NCBI GenBank assembly: GCA_947169385.1
Contig: CAMVPR010000003.1
Coordinates: 1-64,000 of the forward strand
DNA length: 64,000 nucleotides
Direction of reading: 5' to 3'
From: an uncultured Lachnospiraceae bacterium
GTDB lineage: Bacteria; Bacillota; Clostridia; Lachnospirales; Lachnospiraceae
The notes below the pieces were generated by a model. That model saw only the letters and a list, made by a program, of their open reading frames with translations, searched no databases and was not told the origin of the DNA. Of the stretch, positions 7,503 through 50,125 are shown piece by piece (position 1 is the stretch's first letter; each line of letters opens with the position of its first letter). The position numbers and the translations under genes are program-made.

Positions 7503-9143
<1,641 letters not shown>

Positions 9144-39780: not shown

Positions 39781-39850
39781 AAATTAGCTCCTTTTTTACA
39801 TTTTCTCATAATTATATACTATACCAAGGTGTGATGACAAGGTAAATATG

Positions 39851-39873
39851 GTGGTGTATTTATGACACACCAC
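39851..39873. promoter_or_regulatory. Palindromic operator copy 1
   Basis: GTGGTGT-N9-ACACCAC, one base before hexamer TATGAT (39875-39880). Confidence 0.7.
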
Positions 39874-39935
39874 ATATGATATGATTAATGTATCAACAGA
39901 GAACATGTTTTGTTAACAGGATAGGAGTGATTAAT

Positions 39936-39983
39936 ATGTTCGCCACTACGGGTGATACAATTGAGTTAATCACAATTATATGA
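39936..39983 (+). CDS. Candidate 15-aa micro-ORF MFATTGDTIELITII
   Basis: SD ggataggagtg 5-10 nt upstream of ATG; downstream of operator copy 1; not in ORF track. Confidence 0.4.
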   Translation: MFATTGDTIELITII

Positions 39984-39994
39984 TACTATAACAT

Positions 39995-40024
39995 AAGCGG
40001 TGGCATTATTATGACCCACCGCTT
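39995..40024. promoter_or_regulatory. Palindromic operator copy 2
   Basis: AAGCGGTGG-N12-CCACCGCTT, overlapping TATAAT (40024-40029) just upstream of WYL gene. Confidence 0.75.
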
Positions 40025-40061
40025 ATAATGCAATGTAAAGGTGTTATTATTGGAGGCAAGC

Positions 40062-41048
40062 ATGAGAGGACGAAACCAGAAACTAAAGCTACTATACCTT
40101 GCCAAGATTATGCAAGAGAAGACAGACGATACTCATTTTCTGACTATGCCGGAGATTATATCGGAGCTTTCTAAATACGACATAGAAGCGCAGCGTAAGA
40201 GTGTATATGACGACTTGGACGCGCTCAATGACTATGGAATAGAGATTATCAAAGAACAGATAGGCAGTAAGACATATTATCACTGCGGAGCGAGAGAATT
40301 TGAGGCGCCTGAACTCAGACTTATTATAGATGCAATTGCGTCTTCTAAGTTTATAACCATCAGGAAGTCTAAGGAATTAATCAGGAAGCTTGAGAAGATG
40401 CTTAGCGTGCACGATGCCAAGTTGCTTGAACGAGAGGTCTACGTTCCGGGGCGTGTCAGAAACATGAACGAGAGCATTTTCTATAATGTAGACGTGATTC
40501 AGAATGCGATTATAAGCAATCATAGTGTGCGTTTTCAATATTATCATTGGAATGCTGATTATGAGATGGAACTTAAGCGTGACGGTGAGTTTTATGATAT
40601 AAGCCCATGGGCGCTTGTGTGGGATGACGAGAATTATTACCTTGTCGGTTATGATGCCGACAGAGAGGAGCTTAGGCATTACAGGGTTGACAAGATGCTA
40701 AAGGCAGAGGAGACTGATTCGCCAAGAAAGGGTGCTAAAGAATTTAAGAAGATTGATAAGGACAGATACAGAAATATGCATTTTCGTATGTTTGGCGGAG
40801 AGGAAGAGAGTGTTACTTTGCGCTGCAACAATTCGATGGCTAATGTTATTATCGATCAGTTTGGTAGAGGGCTTCGTTTTAAGAAGATTGATTCTGCGCA
40901 TTTCGAGGTTAAGGTTGATGTTATTATGAGCGACCAGTTCTTAAGCTGGGTGATTGCACTTGATGGCAATGTGGTTATAAAGTCGCCGGAAGACGCCAGG
41001 AACAGGATGAGAGAGTTGCTTAATAAGCATATTAGTGAATATTGTTAA
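40062..41048 (+). CDS. WYL-domain transcriptional regulator
   Basis: N-terminal HTH (LLYLAKIMQEKTDDTHFLTMPEIISELSKYDIEAQRKSVYDDLDALNDYG) and WYL domain (YDISPWALVWDDENYYLVGYDADREELRHYRVDKM); ATG 40062 with RBS ttggagg. Confidence 0.9.
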   Translation: MRGRNQKLKLLYLAKIMQEKTDDTHFLTMPEIISELSKYDIEAQRKSVYDDLDALNDYGIEIIKEQIGSKTYYHCGAREFEAPELRLIIDAIASSKFITIRKSKELIRKLEKMLSVHDAKLLEREVYVPGRVRNMNESIFYNVDVIQNAIISNHSVRFQYYHWNADYEMELKRDGEFYDISPWALVWDDENYYLVGYDADREELRHYRVDKMLKAEETDSPRKGAKEFKKIDKDRYRNMHFRMFGGEEESVTLRCNNSMANVIIDQFGRGLRFKKIDSAHFEVKVDVIMSDQFLSWVIALDGNVVIKSPEDARNRMRELLNKHISEYC

Positions 41049-41166
41049 AGTTGAGGTAGTACTCTAAATATGCTATTATATGTGAAATGGAATGAAGGAC
41101 AGCGATGATTGTGAACGTGGCTCGTTCATAATTATTATCGGAGTATTTGGAACAGGAAGTGGTTAC

Positions 41167-42294
41167 ATGTTTTATCTTAAACAGTACAACAAAACACTTT
41201 TGCAATTTGATATTGAAGAGGATACTCTTGATGGGCAAAGGATAGTATCACTTGAGGATGTCAGTGGATTGGATAAATATCTGATTCCTATTGGAGTTGA
41301 ACTGAATTCTGATAGTCTTATGAAATGGTTAATAAGCAGGATTATCCCTAAGAACAGGGAGTATGTTGATGCATTTCTTGCGAAAAACGGATTATCGCAC
41401 AATGACACTAGAGGGATATTGCAGGTGTGTAAAGGACTGTCATTAAATGATAGTTATTGGATTGTGGAAGATGAGTCAGAGAGATTTGAAGATTTCAACT
41501 TATATGATCATGATTTTATCAAGGCATTATCTATGATTGCTTATACCGGATATGGCAGTTCTCCGGCTAAGGGATTTACTTCATCGCCTGAGTTTACCAC
41601 TGCAGGTATGCTTAGAAAAGGGTGGAGAAGAATGAAGGGTAAGATTCTTCTTTATAAAGGTGGGACGACCGGTGCGGCTAATACCGGCAATGAGCCATAT
41701 TCTGAGTTTTATGCAAGCCAGATAGCCAGAAGAATGGAGTTGAATCACGTCGATTATACACTAGCGAAATGGAAGGGCGATGTATGTTCGGTGTGCGAGT
41801 TGTTTACTGATATTGATCATTCGTATGTACCAATATTCAGATTTGTTCATGACTATTCGCTCCGTAAAGTTGCAGATTATATAAAAAGCATGGGAGACAG
41901 TTATTACGATGAATTCGTTGATATGCTTATATTTGATGCTTTAATATATAATGAAGATCGTCATTTTGGTAATTTTGGTTTTATTGTTGATAATAAGACC
42001 AATGAACCGTGTGCTTTCGCACCTATTTTTGACAACGGATTATCACTGTTTAACTACGCTATGATGGATGATTTGGCCGATGTTAAAGAATATGCCAAGA
42101 CAAGAAGGTCTTCGTATGGTGTTCCATTTGAGAATATAGTAAGAGAGTTTATAACACCTAGACAGAAATCTAAATTGCGTCAGATGATAGGGTTTAGATT
42201 TGAACCGGATAACAACTATAATCTTCCGGCTAAAAGAATGAGGATAATAGAAAAGCATTTGCAGAGCAGAGTATCAGAATTGTTGGATTTATAA
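41167..42294 (+). CDS. HipA C-terminal-like kinase
   Basis: DALIYNEDRHFGNFGFIVDNKTNEPCAFAPIFDNGLSLF (HipA catalytic NxDRHxxN-like and DNG motifs). Start 41167 or 41092. Confidence 0.8.
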   Translation: MFYLKQYNKTLLQFDIEEDTLDGQRIVSLEDVSGLDKYLIPIGVELNSDSLMKWLISRIIPKNREYVDAFLAKNGLSHNDTRGILQVCKGLSLNDSYWIVEDESERFEDFNLYDHDFIKALSMIAYTGYGSSPAKGFTSSPEFTTAGMLRKGWRRMKGKILLYKGGTTGAANTGNEPYSEFYASQIARRMELNHVDYTLAKWKGDVCSVCELFTDIDHSYVPIFRFVHDYSLRKVADYIKSMGDSYYDEFVDMLIFDALIYNEDRHFGNFGFIVDNKTNEPCAFAPIFDNGLSLFNYAMMDDLADVKEYAKTRRSSYGVPFENIVREFITPRQKSKLRQMIGFRFEPDNNYNLPAKRMRIIEKHLQSRVSELLDL

Positions 42295-42336
42295 ATTGAT
42301 TTTTTAGCAGACCATAGCGGTCTGCTTTTTTTATTT

Positions 42337-42361
42337 TGGTGGCATTTTTATGATACACCAC
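42337..42361. promoter_or_regulatory. Palindromic operator copy 3
   Basis: TGGTGGCATTTTTATGATACACCAC, one base before TTTGAT (42363-42368), upstream of HIRAN gene. Confidence 0.65.
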
Positions 42362-42426
42362 ATTTGATAAGATTATAATATCAAGTGAGGGCTTATGTTT
42401 TATTGATTTAGAAAGGATGTGGGTAC

Positions 42427-42735
42427 ATGAAAGGTAAGTTTATCACTATTACGGGGATGAAGTATTATTACGGGCTTGCTCCATTTGCAATCGGTAAGAA
42501 GTTCACATGTGTTAAGGAGCCGGACAATCCATATGATGATGAAGCTATTATGGTTATCATGAAGCCTATCGGTAAGATTGGGTATGTTGCTAACAGCACT
42601 TATACCAAGGCGAATGGCACATTGAGCGCAGGCAGGATTCATGATCAGGTTAAGAAGAAGTTTGTTGTTAAAGTGGTTCTTATCACCGAGGATAAAGTTA
42701 TTTGTAAGGTGGTTAAGGGACTTAAGAAGGGTTGA
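42427..42735 (+). CDS. HIRAN-domain protein
   Basis: FITITGMKYYYGLAPFAIGKKFTCVKEPDNPYDDEAIMVIMKPIGKIGYVANS, typical HIRAN. Confidence 0.85.
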   Translation: MKGKFITITGMKYYYGLAPFAIGKKFTCVKEPDNPYDDEAIMVIMKPIGKIGYVANSTYTKANGTLSAGRIHDQVKKKFVVKVVLITEDKVICKVVKGLKKG

Positions 42736-42751
42736 TTAAGGAGGAAGATAT

Positions 42752-43078
42752 ATGTTTTGTTTATTTAGTGGCAGACCTCAAGATTTTGAGGATATTTCAT
42801 TGATTATTATTTATTTTGCAGTTTCGTTTTTGGTTTCGTTGGTATTAATCATTATTTGTGGCTACTTATGGAATTATTATATGATTAGGGAATTGAGGAG
42901 GTTAAACAGCTCGATTCAGTCACTTGATAATTCGATTCTTTCGGTTAAGAATAGCGTGGCGGCTAACAACTTTAGGAACCCTAATATGATACAGGGGAAC
43001 TATAGCCAGGGTGCACCTGGTAACAATAACTATAACACCGGAGGGAATACTTCACCAACTAAACCGTCCGGAATGTAG
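42752..43078 (+). CDS. Small membrane protein with coiled-coil-like tail
   Basis: One TM (LIIIYFAVSFLVSLVLIIICGYLW) and RELRRLNSSIQSLDNSILSVKNSV; RBS aaggaggaagatat. Confidence 0.7.
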   Translation: MFCLFSGRPQDFEDISLIIIYFAVSFLVSLVLIIICGYLWNYYMIRELRRLNSSIQSLDNSILSVKNSVAANNFRNPNMIQGNYSQGAPGNNNYNTGGNTSPTKPSGM

Positions 43079-43131
43079 AGTATTGGGGGCAAGGATACTT
43101 ATAAGAATGTTGATTAATAGGGAGGTTCGTT

Positions 43132-43194
43132 ATGATTAGTAGAAGGATTATTTTGGTTGTGCTGTGGGTTATTATTGCATATTTAGCTGCATGA
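43132..43194 (+). CDS. Candidate 20-aa hydrophobic micro-ORF MISRRIILVVLWVIIAYLAA
   Basis: SD gggagg 7 nt upstream of ATG; single hydrophobic helix; not in ORF track. Confidence 0.5.
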   Translation: MISRRIILVVLWVIIAYLAA

Positions 43195-43537: not shown

Positions 43538-43813
43538 TTGAAGGGTAAGTATTCATTTCAATATAATGTTACATTTGAGAATTGTACAATCATCGGAACT
43601 CAGCTACTGTGTTATTGCAGAGGACTTAGACTTATAGATTGCAAGATGATTGGAACTGATTTGAGTTTTGAAAAGTCAGAAGTTGATGCAAGGATTATAG
43701 GAAGCATTGACAGTATCAAGAATCCAACATCAGGCACCATAAGTGCGGATGAGATAAAAGATATCATTATGGATAGTGAGAATCCGAGAGTTGTTCTGGA
43801 TGTTCGTGGATAA
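43538..43813 (+). pseudogene. C-terminal fragment of DUF3737-like right-handed beta-helix protein
   Basis: YNVTFENCTIIGTQLLCYCRGLRLIDCKMIGTDLSFEKSEVDARIIGSIDSIKNPTSGTISADEI; N-terminal bulk of the family absent. Confidence 0.65.
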
Positions 43814-45966: not shown

Positions 45967-47865
45967 ATGGATAACGCAAGTATTAAGAAATTAGAGGCGG
46001 ATTTGTGGGAATCTGCAGACTTACTTCGTGCAGGTTCAAAATTAACATCAAATCAGTATTGTATGCCTGTGCTTGGATTATTATTCCTTAGATATGCATA
46101 TAGTCGATTTAAGATGGTTGAAGAGGAAATATTAAAGACAAGACCCGTTAGAAACGGAAGACAGATGCCTGTTGAATCTAGCGATTTTGCAGCTAAAAGC
46201 GCACTATATCTTCCTAAAGAGGCTCAGTTTAGTTATCTTGTTAACTTGCCTTCAAATGTTTCATCAATGGGATTAGTAAATGTTGATGGACAGCCTATGG
46301 CAAGTCTTGGCGAAGTAGTAAACAATGCAATGAATTTGGTTGAGCAGCAGAGTGAGCAACTTACAGGTGTTTTGCCAAAGAGCTATACAGATTTTTCGGA
46401 TGAGCTGCTTGGAGAGCTTTTAAGAATATTCAATAACAATGCACTGGATGAGGTTGGTGGTGATGTTATTGGACGTATTTATGAGTATTTCCTTAATAAA
46501 TTTGCTAAGAATATTGCATCTGATGACGGTGTTTTCTTTACACCAAAGTCACTTGTAAAAATGATTGTTAATATTCTTGAACCTAAGCGGGGTGTTCTTC
46601 TTGATCCGGCATGTGGTTCAGGTGGGATGTTTGTTCAGACTGGTGATTTTGTAAATGAAGCAGGATTACAGGCTAATTCAAGCATGACTTTTTATGGTCA
46701 GGAAAAGGTTGAGTATAATGCCCAGCTTTGCTTGATGAATATGGCTGTGCATGGACTTACGGGCGTGATTAAGTCTGGAGACGAAGCAAATAGCTTCTAT
46801 CATGATGCCCATAATCTTGAAGGACAGTGCAATTATGTAATGGCAAATCCACCGTTTAACGTTGATAAGGTTAAAGCAGAATCAGCTACAAATGCAGGAA
46901 GATTACCATTTGGTGTTCCAAAAGAGAATAAAAAGAAAGAAATCGGAAATGCAAATTATCTTTGGATTTCTTATTTCTATGCTTATTTGAATGAAACGGG
47001 ACGTGCAGGTTTTGTTATGGCGTCTTCTGCTACAGATAGTCAGGGAAGTGATAAAGATATTAGAGAAAAACTTGTTAAGACCGGACATGTGGATGTCATG
47101 ATTTCTGTTGGTAATAATTTCTTTTATACAAAGAGTTTGCCTTGTTCATTATGGTTCTATGATAAGGGGAAATCTGACGCTATAAAAGACAAAGTATTAT
47201 TTATTGACGCCAGAAATTATTATACGGTTGTCGATCGTACATTAAATGAATGGAGTGAATGGCAGCTTAAGAATCTAAATGCAATTGTATGGCTATATAG
47301 AGGCGAGACAGAGAAGTATCAGGCATTGCTTGAAGAATATAAATCTACAATTGCCACGTTGATTTCAGAGAATGGAGAAACAGGATTAAATGCTGTCAAT
47401 GAGGATGTATTTGGAGAGGAAATAGAGGTTGTAAAAAAGCAACTAAAAGCATTAAAAGAGAACTCTAAAAAAGCTGTCGAGGCTGCAGATAGAAAAGATA
47501 AGAAGCGTGTTCAGGCAGAATGGGATGAAAAGATAGCTGACATTACAGAAATTGCAAAAATAGTAAAAGAGGCACATTGGCTTTACAGCAAATTTGGTAA
47601 TGGCACATATCAGGATATCCCAGGGCTTTGTAAGATTGCATATACAACGAATGACAAGAAGACAGATGAAAATGATATCAGTATAGAAGACAAAGGCTGG
47701 TCATTAACTCCGGGAGCTTATGTAGGTGTTGCTCCGGTAGAAGATGATGGAGTGGACTTTGAAGAAAGAATGGCAGAGATTCATCAGGAACTTCTTTCAC
47801 TTCAAGCGGAAAGTAATGAATTGATGGATGCTATCTCACAGAATATGAAGGAGATGGGACTATGA
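45967..47865 (+). CDS. hsdM: Type I restriction-modification system methyltransferase subunit
   Basis: LLDPACGSGGMFVQT and catalytic NPPF (YVMANPPFNVDK). Confidence 0.96.
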   Translation: MDNASIKKLEADLWESADLLRAGSKLTSNQYCMPVLGLLFLRYAYSRFKMVEEEILKTRPVRNGRQMPVESSDFAAKSALYLPKEAQFSYLVNLPSNVSSMGLVNVDGQPMASLGEVVNNAMNLVEQQSEQLTGVLPKSYTDFSDELLGELLRIFNNNALDEVGGDVIGRIYEYFLNKFAKNIASDDGVFFTPKSLVKMIVNILEPKRGVLLDPACGSGGMFVQTGDFVNEAGLQANSSMTFYGQEKVEYNAQLCLMNMAVHGLTGVIKSGDEANSFYHDAHNLEGQCNYVMANPPFNVDKVKAESATNAGRLPFGVPKENKKKEIGNANYLWISYFYAYLNETGRAGFVMASSATDSQGSDKDIREKLVKTGHVDVMISVGNNFFYTKSLPCSLWFYDKGKSDAIKDKVLFIDARNYYTVVDRTLNEWSEWQLKNLNAIVWLYRGETEKYQALLEEYKSTIATLISENGETGLNAVNEDVFGEEIEVVKKQLKALKENSKKAVEAADRKDKKRVQAEWDEKIADITEIAKIVKEAHWLYSKFGNGTYQDIPGLCKIAYTTNDKKTDENDISIEDKGWSLTPGAYVGVAPVEDDGVDFEERMAEIHQELLSLQAESNELMDAISQNMKEMGL

Positions 47866-48929
47866 AAGATAGGCAAGATTTAGAAGTAATCAAATACGAA
47901 AAAACAGCTGACATAGTCTCTGATGTAAAGAATATTATTGAATCTGCTCAAAAGAGAGCTTTTCAATCAGTGAATGCTGTGTTGGTAATGAGAAACTGGT
48001 TCCTTGGTAAAAGAATAGTAGAAGAGGAATTAAGTGGTGAACGTACGGACAGATATGGTAAGGAAATAATTGCATCTTTGTCAGATGAATTGACAAAGGA
48101 ATATGGAAAAGGGTTTGATAAGAGCTCTTTATATAAGTTTGCAAAGTTTTATCAGAAATATCCTCAGATTGTGGACTCAGTGAGTCCACAATCTAAGTTG
48201 CTGTCATGGACGCACTACAGAGTCCTGTTACAAGTAGAAGATACAGATGCCAGAGAATGGTATGGGAATGAGGCATTCGATCAGGCGTGGAGTGTGCGCA
48301 CTTTACAAAGAAATATTTCTACACAGTATTACTATAGAATGCTAAAGACACAGAATCCTACTGGCGTAGAACAGGAAATGAAAGAACTTACAAGCAAGTA
48401 TCAGAACAAATTGGAATTTATAAAAAATCCGGTAATTGCTGAGTTTCTCGGCATGCAGGAAGATACGTCCTACTTGGAGTCAGATTTAGAACAGTGCATC
48501 ATTGATAATCTTCAAAAGTTTCTTATGGAACTTGGCAAAGGCTATGCGTTTGTAGCGAGACAGCAGCATATCCATACGGAAAAAGAGGATTACTATATTG
48601 ACTTGGTATTCTATAACTATATCCTGAAGTGTTTTGTATTGATTGATTTGAAAACTAAGAAAATCACACATCAGGACGTAGGACAGATGGATATGTACAT
48701 CCGTATGTATGATGAATTGAAGAAATCTGAAGATGATAATCCAACTCTTGGTATCGTTTTGTGTTCAGATACAGACGAAGACATTGCAAGATATTCTGTT
48801 CTTCATGATAATGAACAGCTTTTTGCATCAAAATATAAGCTATATCTTCCATCAGAAGAAGAATTGAAAGCGGAAATAGAAACACAGAAGGAGATGTTCT
48901 ATCTCCAGAAGAAGGAGATGGAAGAATGA
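47862..48929 (+). CDS. YhcG-type PDDEXK nuclease (DUF1016)
   Basis: NWFLGKRIVEEELSGERTDRYGKEIIASLSDELTKEYGKGF...; FYNYILKCFVLIDLKTKKI (PDDEXK-like D..DLK). Confidence 0.88.
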   Translation: MKDRQDLEVIKYEKTADIVSDVKNIIESAQKRAFQSVNAVLVMRNWFLGKRIVEEELSGERTDRYGKEIIASLSDELTKEYGKGFDKSSLYKFAKFYQKYPQIVDSVSPQSKLLSWTHYRVLLQVEDTDAREWYGNEAFDQAWSVRTLQRNISTQYYYRMLKTQNPTGVEQEMKELTSKYQNKLEFIKNPVIAEFLGMQEDTSYLESDLEQCIIDNLQKFLMELGKGYAFVARQQHIHTEKEDYYIDLVFYNYILKCFVLIDLKTKKITHQDVGQMDMYIRMYDELKKSEDDNPTLGIVLCSDTDEDIARYSVLHDNEQLFASKYKLYLPSEEELKAEIETQKEMFYLQKKEMEE

Positions 48930-50125
48930 GTTGGGAATATAAAACACTAGATGAACTCGGTACAATATCACGTGGAAAATCCAAACATAGACCAAGGAAT
49001 GATGTATCTCTATTTGGGGGGGATTATCCATTTATTCAAACTGCGGATGTTAAGGCGGCTAATCTATATCTTACAGAATATGAAGATACCTATAATGATA
49101 AAGGACTAGCACAAAGCAAGTTATGGGAAGCAGGAACTCTATGTATAACAATTGCTGCTAATATTGCGGACACAGCAATATTGGGAATGAATGCATGTTT
49201 CCCGGATAGTATTATGGGTTTTCAGCCATATGAGGGGATTTCGAATGTTAAATTTGTTAAATACGCTTTTGATATGTTACAAAGGGATTGTAAGCAGATT
49301 TCACAAGGTGCCGCGCAAGATAATTTATCATGGAAGAAACTATCTACGATAGAGTTTCCAGCACCTGATATTGAAATTCAAGATAGAATTGTTAATATAC
49401 TTTCGGCTTATGATGACCTCATTGAAAACAACCAAAAACAGATCAAACTTTTAGAAGAGGCTGCACAGCGTCTTTATAAGGAATGGTTTGTTGATTTGAG
49501 ATTTCCTGGATATGAGGATTGTAAAATTGTTGACGGTGTTCCAGAAGGATGGAAAAGAAAAAAGATATCTGATTTAGGAGAAATCGTAACAGGAAAAACA
49601 CCATCCACATCAAAGGAGCAGTATTATGGAGGTGATGTTCCTTTTGTAAAGATTCCAGATATGCATAATTGTGTTTATCCTATAACTACTGAAACGACAT
49701 TAACAGTAGAGGGAGCCAACACACAGAAGAACAAATATATTTCAAAGAATAGCATAATGGTATCTTGTATAGCCACAGTCGGCCTTGTAAATATAGCTGT
49801 TGATGATTGTCAAACAAATCAACAGATTAATTCAATTGTTCTTAATAATGAAGAGGATTTGTACTTTGTTTATTCATCTATGAAAAGATTGAAAGCCTTA
49901 CTTGAGGGAGTTGGGAGTAATGGGGCTACTATGACAAATGTAAATAAAACAAAATTTGCAAATCTTGAATTATTATACCCTGAGGATAAAATAGTTAAGC
50001 TATATTATGATTTTTGTGAACCGATTTTTAAAAAGATTTATTCGCTCAGTCTTGATAAAGTTGAACTGTCTCAAATGAGGGATATTTTACTGCCAAAACT
50101 TATGTCTGGTGAAATTGAAATATAA
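48926..50125 (+). CDS. hsdS: Type I restriction-modification specificity subunit
   Basis: Two target recognition half-repeats (YDDLIENNQKQIKLLEEAAQRLYKEWFVDLRFPGYE; GWKRKKISDLGEIVTGKTPSTSKEQYYGGDVPFVKIPDM). Confidence 0.95.
   Translation: MSWEYKTLDELGTISRGKSKHRPRNDVSLFGGDYPFIQTADVKAANLYLTEYEDTYNDKGLAQSKLWEAGTLCITIAANIADTAILGMNACFPDSIMGFQPYEGISNVKFVKYAFDMLQRDCKQISQGAAQDNLSWKKLSTIEFPAPDIEIQDRIVNILSAYDDLIENNQKQIKLLEEAAQRLYKEWFVDLRFPGYEDCKIVDGVPEGWKRKKISDLGEIVTGKTPSTSKEQYYGGDVPFVKIPDMHNCVYPITTETTLTVEGANTQKNKYISKNSIMVSCIATVGLVNIAVDDCQTNQQINSIVLNNEEDLYFVYSSMKRLKALLEGVGSNGATMTNVNKTKFANLELLYPEDKIVKLYYDFCEPIFKKIYSLSLDKVELSQMRDILLPKLMSGEIEI

Follow-up and report, generated by a model that had tools for sequence, protein, structure and literature searches.

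A phased promoter box beside a WYL regulator and a small HIRAN gene in a Lachnospiraceae defence island: a candidate DNA-damage-type switch

The locus described here lies in a stretch of 64,000 nucleotides (the window; contig CAMVPR010000003.1, assembly GCA_947169385.1) from an uncultured Lachnospiraceae bacterium and comprises, all on the forward strand, the genes for a WYL regulator, a HipA-like kinase, and a stand-alone small HIRAN protein, together with three copies of a promoter-like box that is the main subject of this report. The WYL regulator (40062..41045; 328 amino acids) has the winged helix-turn-helix (wHTH)-WYL-WCX layout of a class A WYL factor, with Pfam matches to WYL (7e-15) and WCX (4e-5) above cut-off and an N-terminal helix-turn-helix in its structural model. 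The HIRAN protein (42427..42732; 102 amino acids) matches Pfam HIRAN (PF08797, 1.4e-9, above cut-off) and, by profile, the HIRAN domain of HLTF (2e-4); its predicted fold and NPYDxxAI signature suggest a DNA-end-binding HIRAN domain, and its relatives align as a tight family of approximately 100 amino acids with a signature of the NPYDxxAI type. It is followed by a 108-residue protein with one N-terminal hydrophobic segment and no known family (42752..43075), which is kept in a sister species, and by the open reading frame (ORF) of a 20-residue hydrophobic peptide with a ribosome-binding site (43132..43194), which also has a sister counterpart (MISRRIILVVLWVIIAYLAA / MISRKIMLVMLWMIIAFLAA).

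Copy 1 of the box (GGTGGTGTATTTATGACACACCAC, 39850..39873) was identified by motif scan, arm search, and alignment; copy 2 (GGTGGCATTATTATGACCCACCGC, 39999..40022) by motif scan and arm search; and copy 3 (GGTGGCATTTTTATGATACACCAC, 42338..42361), the probable HIRAN promoter, by motif scan and sister-species alignment. The original prediction of a shared element at three sites was correct for all three, with coordinates off by one or a few bases. They are the sole matches in the window at up to three mismatches, while dinucleotide-preserving shuffles average 0.01, and a scan of the entire 2.76-Mb genome yielded no further strict copy. A wider regulon in this genome, built from matches at two mismatches, was considered and rejected, as most of these lie within coding sequence. 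The GGTG and CACC arms of every copy are palindromic and stand exactly 14 bases apart (GGTG-N14-CACC), the sole spacing that gives three matches within the window; no box of this form was found in viral contigs. Only copy 2 extends into a long palindrome, with perfect 11-bp arms (ATAAGCGGTGG/CCACCGCTTAT).

A -10-like TATGAT preceded by TG (39880..39885) stands 16 nt past the TATTTAT core of copy 1, and TAAGAT, again preceded by TG (42368..42373), stands 16 nt past the TTTTTAT of copy 3, where the sister species has TATGCT. It had been claimed that one base separates CACCRC from TATGAT, TATAAT, or TTTGAT in the three copies, which is literally true, but the -10 phase conserved in the sister species and related loci, and obeyed by copies 1 and 3 and the sister site, lies 5 nt further. 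Copy 2 alone fits the earlier phase better, with TATAAT at 40024-40029 and not at the 16-nt spacing; this deviating copy may serve for autoregulation.

Copies 1 and 3 are not independent. Their local alignment shows homology through the -10, the leader, and the first HIRAN codons (score 82; shuffles reached 43 at most), while the leaders aligned alone give a weaker score of 35 that was reached by 4 of 500 shuffles; copy 2 has the box in common with them, not the leader. A 15-codon ORF (39936..39983), earlier regarded as a micro-ORF and target gene, looks on this alignment not like a gene of its own, because the homology runs into HIRAN codons, and most likely represents the degraded beginning of a HIRAN duplicate. 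Copy 1 is a partial duplicate of the copy 3 promoter with the HIRAN leader and start, so the genome has at most two independent sites, not three.

Among four other genomes of the genus, one (the sister species, G200) has the entire locus in unchanged order, with a WYL protein 93% identical. There the box is retained before HIRAN (GCTGGCATTTTTATGACCCACCAT) while the surrounding spacer has diverged. A strong intrinsic terminator (42306..42332; terminator scan) directly precedes copy 3 in the window, so that HIRAN has no conserved promoter-like element before it other than copy 3.

The upstream regions of WYL and HIRAN genes from other Clostridia were read for a common core, which consists of TTTTTAT, 16 nt, and TAnnnT. 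The pattern [AT]TTTTAT-N16-TAnnnT occurs in 9 of 68 such regions, compared with 0.2 in shuffles and none on the opposite strand; these nine include the window and its sister, as well as two loci (L151 and L155) that were fetched by the motif itself and whose genes had already appeared among the matches of the WYL and HIRAN protein searches. The commonest form of the core site is TTTTTATnGGACA. When nine TTTTTATnGGACA sites were collected without any constraint on the -10, in loci fetched by protein similarity only, eight had TAnnnT at exactly +16, where approximately 3% is expected for each, and this exact spacing is the strongest evidence that the element would work as a strictly phased promoter. 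The proposed link of the element to WYL and HIRAN genes elsewhere is thereby borne out.

Among 397 Lachnospiraceae genomes, 15 matches to the box itself were found at up to two mismatches, and besides those of the window and its sister, 3 of 11 adjoin WYL genes. A position weight matrix of the box, run around 29 WYL relatives, scored high only at one locus of G085 and two of G034, the latter two having been found by the motif itself. The G034 box was also considered as an ordinary gene promoter and rejected, since a terminator-like hairpin follows it.

At the level of genomes, all 19 Lachnospiraceae with TTTTTATnGGACA-N10-TAnnnT carry the WYL family, compared with 122 of 200 overall, and across Clostridia the family is present in 13 of 18 genomes with this motif versus 128 of 382 overall; three of the five exceptions are motif matches inside coding ORFs. 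The genes right after the motif include those for WYL proteins (twice before Cas9), HIRAN proteins, a Y-family polymerase, AddB, and YneA-like proteins, one TTTTTATnGGACA site lying between lexA and a yneA-like gene. The wider motif was rejected as a LexA box, as GAAC-N4-GTTC boxes stand separately within the same intergenic regions. In three genera (L140, L127, and L167), a conserved ORF of approximately 35-40 amino acids (MKGYxTxxGYMGxVxGxYxxFAS..DY), assigned to no family, lies upstream of HIRAN genes or immediately follows the motif.

The two genes recur as a pair. In a draw of 200 genera, HIRAN and WYL matches less than 1 kb apart were found at 11 places in 10 genomes, where rough arithmetic expects far fewer than one; 4 of the 11 belong to a different HIRAN subfamily. 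Such pairs adjoin type I-C cas genes (L138) or hsdM (L135), and the Butyrivibrio proteoclasticus plasmid pCY186 carries McrBC-WYL-HIRAN with a more distant WYL. WYL proteins are already known with defence genes (PMC9122601). This genome has a second WYL gene (41% identical), which adjoins Cas9, Cas1, Cas2, and a CRISPR array (L048, G000 contig 1, 3395-8608), and members of the same WYL family (41-59% identity) stand beside Cas9 in this and other genomes; these defence loci (Cas9, type I-C cas, McrBC) differ in lacking the GGTG-N14-CACC form of the box.

The HipA-like kinase between the two genes (41167..42291; 375 amino acids) was recognised by profile searches, has intact EDRHFGN and FDNG motifs, and belongs with the HipA-family kinases: it matches HipA_C at 4.5e-7 (30.2 bits, just below the cut-off of 30.5), PADLOC PDC-M03A at 4e-21, and CtkA at 3e-5 with both motifs aligned. 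A sigma-A-type promoter-like sequence of its own (TTGAGG-17-TATTAT with TG, 41051..41079) is also present in the sister species; it comes from a promoter scan that registers consensus matches only, with 25 found against 14 expected in shuffles. With this sequence upstream and the terminator downstream, the proposed membership of the kinase in the same regulon is not supported, and the kinase is probably a mere neighbour. HipA orthologs were tried as a guide to the system and given up; the homologs at approximately 50% whose surroundings were read either occur singly or have an in-frame XRE domain, without WYL or HIRAN, and for this reason the kinase was set aside. Its leader contains a palindrome, TGAACGnGGCTCGTTCA (41106-41124), that is perfect in the sister species (L045, approximately 8645-8665) and may be a separate operator or an RNA hairpin.

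The pairing of HipA with HIRAN has been described before (PMC8262856, PMC11706625), with hipIN and hipL in the first of these reports, and the PADLOC candidate PDC-M03 likewise pairs them. The window resembles HipI-HipN, HipL, and PDC-M03 in that a HipA-like kinase gene adjoins a HIRAN gene; it differs from them in the terminator that intervenes, in the 102-residue HIRAN protein without a HipS-like domain, and in the partners of HIRAN relatives, which pair with WYL and not with the kinase. The window HIRAN protein matches only the HIRAN part of PDC-M03B and is not a HipN antitoxin, because the HipS-like part is lacking. The combination of genes, first thought unfamiliar, is therefore partly known: HipA with HIRAN is on record and WYL with HIRAN recurs, but a non-exhaustive search of the open-licence literature found neither the WYL-HIRAN pair, nor the fixed-spacing box, nor a binding site for this WYL family.

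Downstream of the locus lies a type I restriction-modification system (45967-50125) in which a gene for a YhcG-type nuclease (PADLOC PDC-S02) separates hsdM from hsdS, in agreement with the defence-island setting proposed before. Two further features were observed nearby. A DUF3737 gene is represented only by its C-terminal third (43538-43810) and is a pseudogene, because the sister species has a full copy of 278 amino acids (L045, 11202-12038). A dispersed repeat, GTCATTCTGAGCGAAGCGAAGAATCTT, occurs in the 43384 and 43858 regions of the window and has also inserted near the WYL promoter of the sister species (L045, around 7495), where the box is lost.

In searches with the AlphaFold2 model of the WYL protein, DriD with single-stranded DNA (ssDNA) and cognate DNA came first (7e-15), followed by PafBC (9e-14), CapW (3e-7), and BrxR (2e-6), and the matches to DriD and PafBC span the full length; CapW and BrxR, the type named earlier, are more distant by structure. 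The search ranks fold families and not details, because domain positions differ and TM-scores are low as a result. Three basic residues of the putative groove region (R208, K211, and R222) are invariant in the WYL alignment. DriD of Caulobacter activates transcription when triggered by ssDNA and binds a 20-bp pseudo-palindrome (PMC12340889), and PafBC of mycobacteria contacts a -26 motif and adapts sigma once ssDNA is bound (PMC11804915). The window protein shares with them the wHTH-WYL-WCX layout and the best structural and profile matches, and the box, copy 2 excepted, shares a fixed element just upstream of the -10 and a poor -35; it differs in being clostridial, local to a defence island with HIRAN, and of another motif sequence. 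The WYL repressors CapW (of CBASS) and BrxR (of BREX) resemble it in having WYL beside defence genes and a palindrome at their own and the neighbouring promoter, and differ by lower structural similarity (3e-7 and worse), by the conserved -10 that stands here beside the box and not under it, and by their CBASS or BREX genes, none of which were seen adjoining the locus. By analogy, a box without TTGACA and with a fixed -10 resembles activator-dependent promoters more than a CapW-like repressor site.

The explanation that we favour, by a modest degree of confidence, is that the boxes are sites for the local WYL regulator in promoters without a good -35, through which it would activate HIRAN and the membrane protein and tune its own gene. 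The pseudo-palindrome, at about -41 to -18, would be occupied by a dimeric WYL protein similar to DriD and PafBC; upon DNA damage or phage attack, its WYL domains would bind ssDNA, and the ssDNA-bound protein would help the housekeeping polymerase to use the -10 at the fixed distance. Copy 3, the only apparent promoter of HIRAN and the membrane protein, would switch both on, and copies 1 and 2 would serve to adjust the WYL gene's own expression. DNA ends arising from damage or infection would be bound by the HIRAN protein. The original prediction of an operator or promoter element linked to the WYL regulator, with a weak -35 suggesting an activator, is supported in this respect, while the binding of WYL to the box, the activation, and the ssDNA signal are what we infer from these features.

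Several observations weigh against this explanation. The -10 of copy 2 is in the other phase and its box overlaps a consensus TATAAT in the manner of a repressor site, and a canonical promoter-like sequence, TTGAGT-17-TACTAT, stops immediately before the box. The conservation of the motif upstream of orthologs, expected by the original prediction, holds before HIRAN but not before WYL, where the sister species has lost the box and has a dispersed repeat and a different palindrome. The box is absent within 1.5 kb of most WYL relatives, the core is rare in WYL promoters (3-4 of 51), and the structural model of WYL has intermediate quality (pLDDT 77.5, pTM 0.48). Class-wide, the TTTTTATnGGACA pattern has a raw count of 20, no higher than the approximately 25 of a reversed-pattern control; several class-wide matches are therefore chance, and context and spacing are relied on, not counts. 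Finally, palindromic TGTCC-TTTTTATn-GGACA sites accompany XRE repressor genes of phages or mobile elements (viral contigs L215, L216, and L217), which means that another protein may read this variant, and it is not claimed that WYL reads every TTTTTATnGGACA-like site.

An alternative is a repressor of the CapW/BrxR type: the WYL protein would cover its own and the HIRAN core promoters through the palindrome until released by a ligand (ssDNA). The sites of CapW overlap the -10 (PMC9122588), the palindrome is of about the length bound by CapW, and copy 2 extends into a perfect TATAAT just after the canonical promoter-like sequence, in a defence-island setting with a type I restriction-modification system; a palindrome over the -10 of the regulator's own promoter is seen only in copy 2 and is lost in the sister species. 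We consider such repression unlikely, though a serious contender, as the -35 region of related sites is conserved as TTTTTA and not as TTGACA, which would be odd if the promoter only needed blocking, the distance to the -10 is strict, and the activators DriD and PafBC come ahead of CapW and BrxR as structural neighbours.

Rather improbable is a reading of the boxes by another regulator, either a repressor of the XRE/ImmA type or an additional factor of the damage response, with the WYL gene as one target among several. TTTTTATnGGACA sites also precede XRE or ImmA/IrrE genes, the Y-family polymerase, a yneA-like gene, and addB, one lies between lexA and a yneA-like gene, and LexA-like boxes stand separately near some of them; yet motif-bearing genomes nearly always carry the WYL family, and in the genome of the window the strict motif is confined to the WYL-HIRAN locus. 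That the three copies are mere remnants of a duplicated promoter without a shared regulator, as the homology of copies 1 and 3 through the leader into the HIRAN start might suggest, is very improbable, since copy 2 shares the box and not the leader with copy 1, the box is kept in the sister species, and the core recurs beside WYL and HIRAN genes of other genera.

Returning to the WYL activator, a broader regulon may be envisaged only tentatively, and we regard it as doubtful at present: a hitherto undescribed DNA-damage regulon beside LexA in many Clostridia, in which the activator would read TTTTTATnGGACA-N10-TAnnnT before HIRAN, before its own gene (in many cases accompanied by Cas9 or further defence genes), and before repair genes such as those for a Y-family polymerase, AddB, and YneA-like proteins. 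The window locus would then be a specialised branch whose box has a sequence of its own.

WYL regulators are common in Clostridia, and a defined box with strict spacing turns the finding of WYL beside defence genes into a testable switch, with DNA damage as its likely trigger and the small HIRAN protein as its prime target gene. The WYL-box-HIRAN elements suggest a DNA-damage-type switch in gut and rumen bacteria, and the wider motif, if confirmed, would represent a second damage response next to LexA in this important group.

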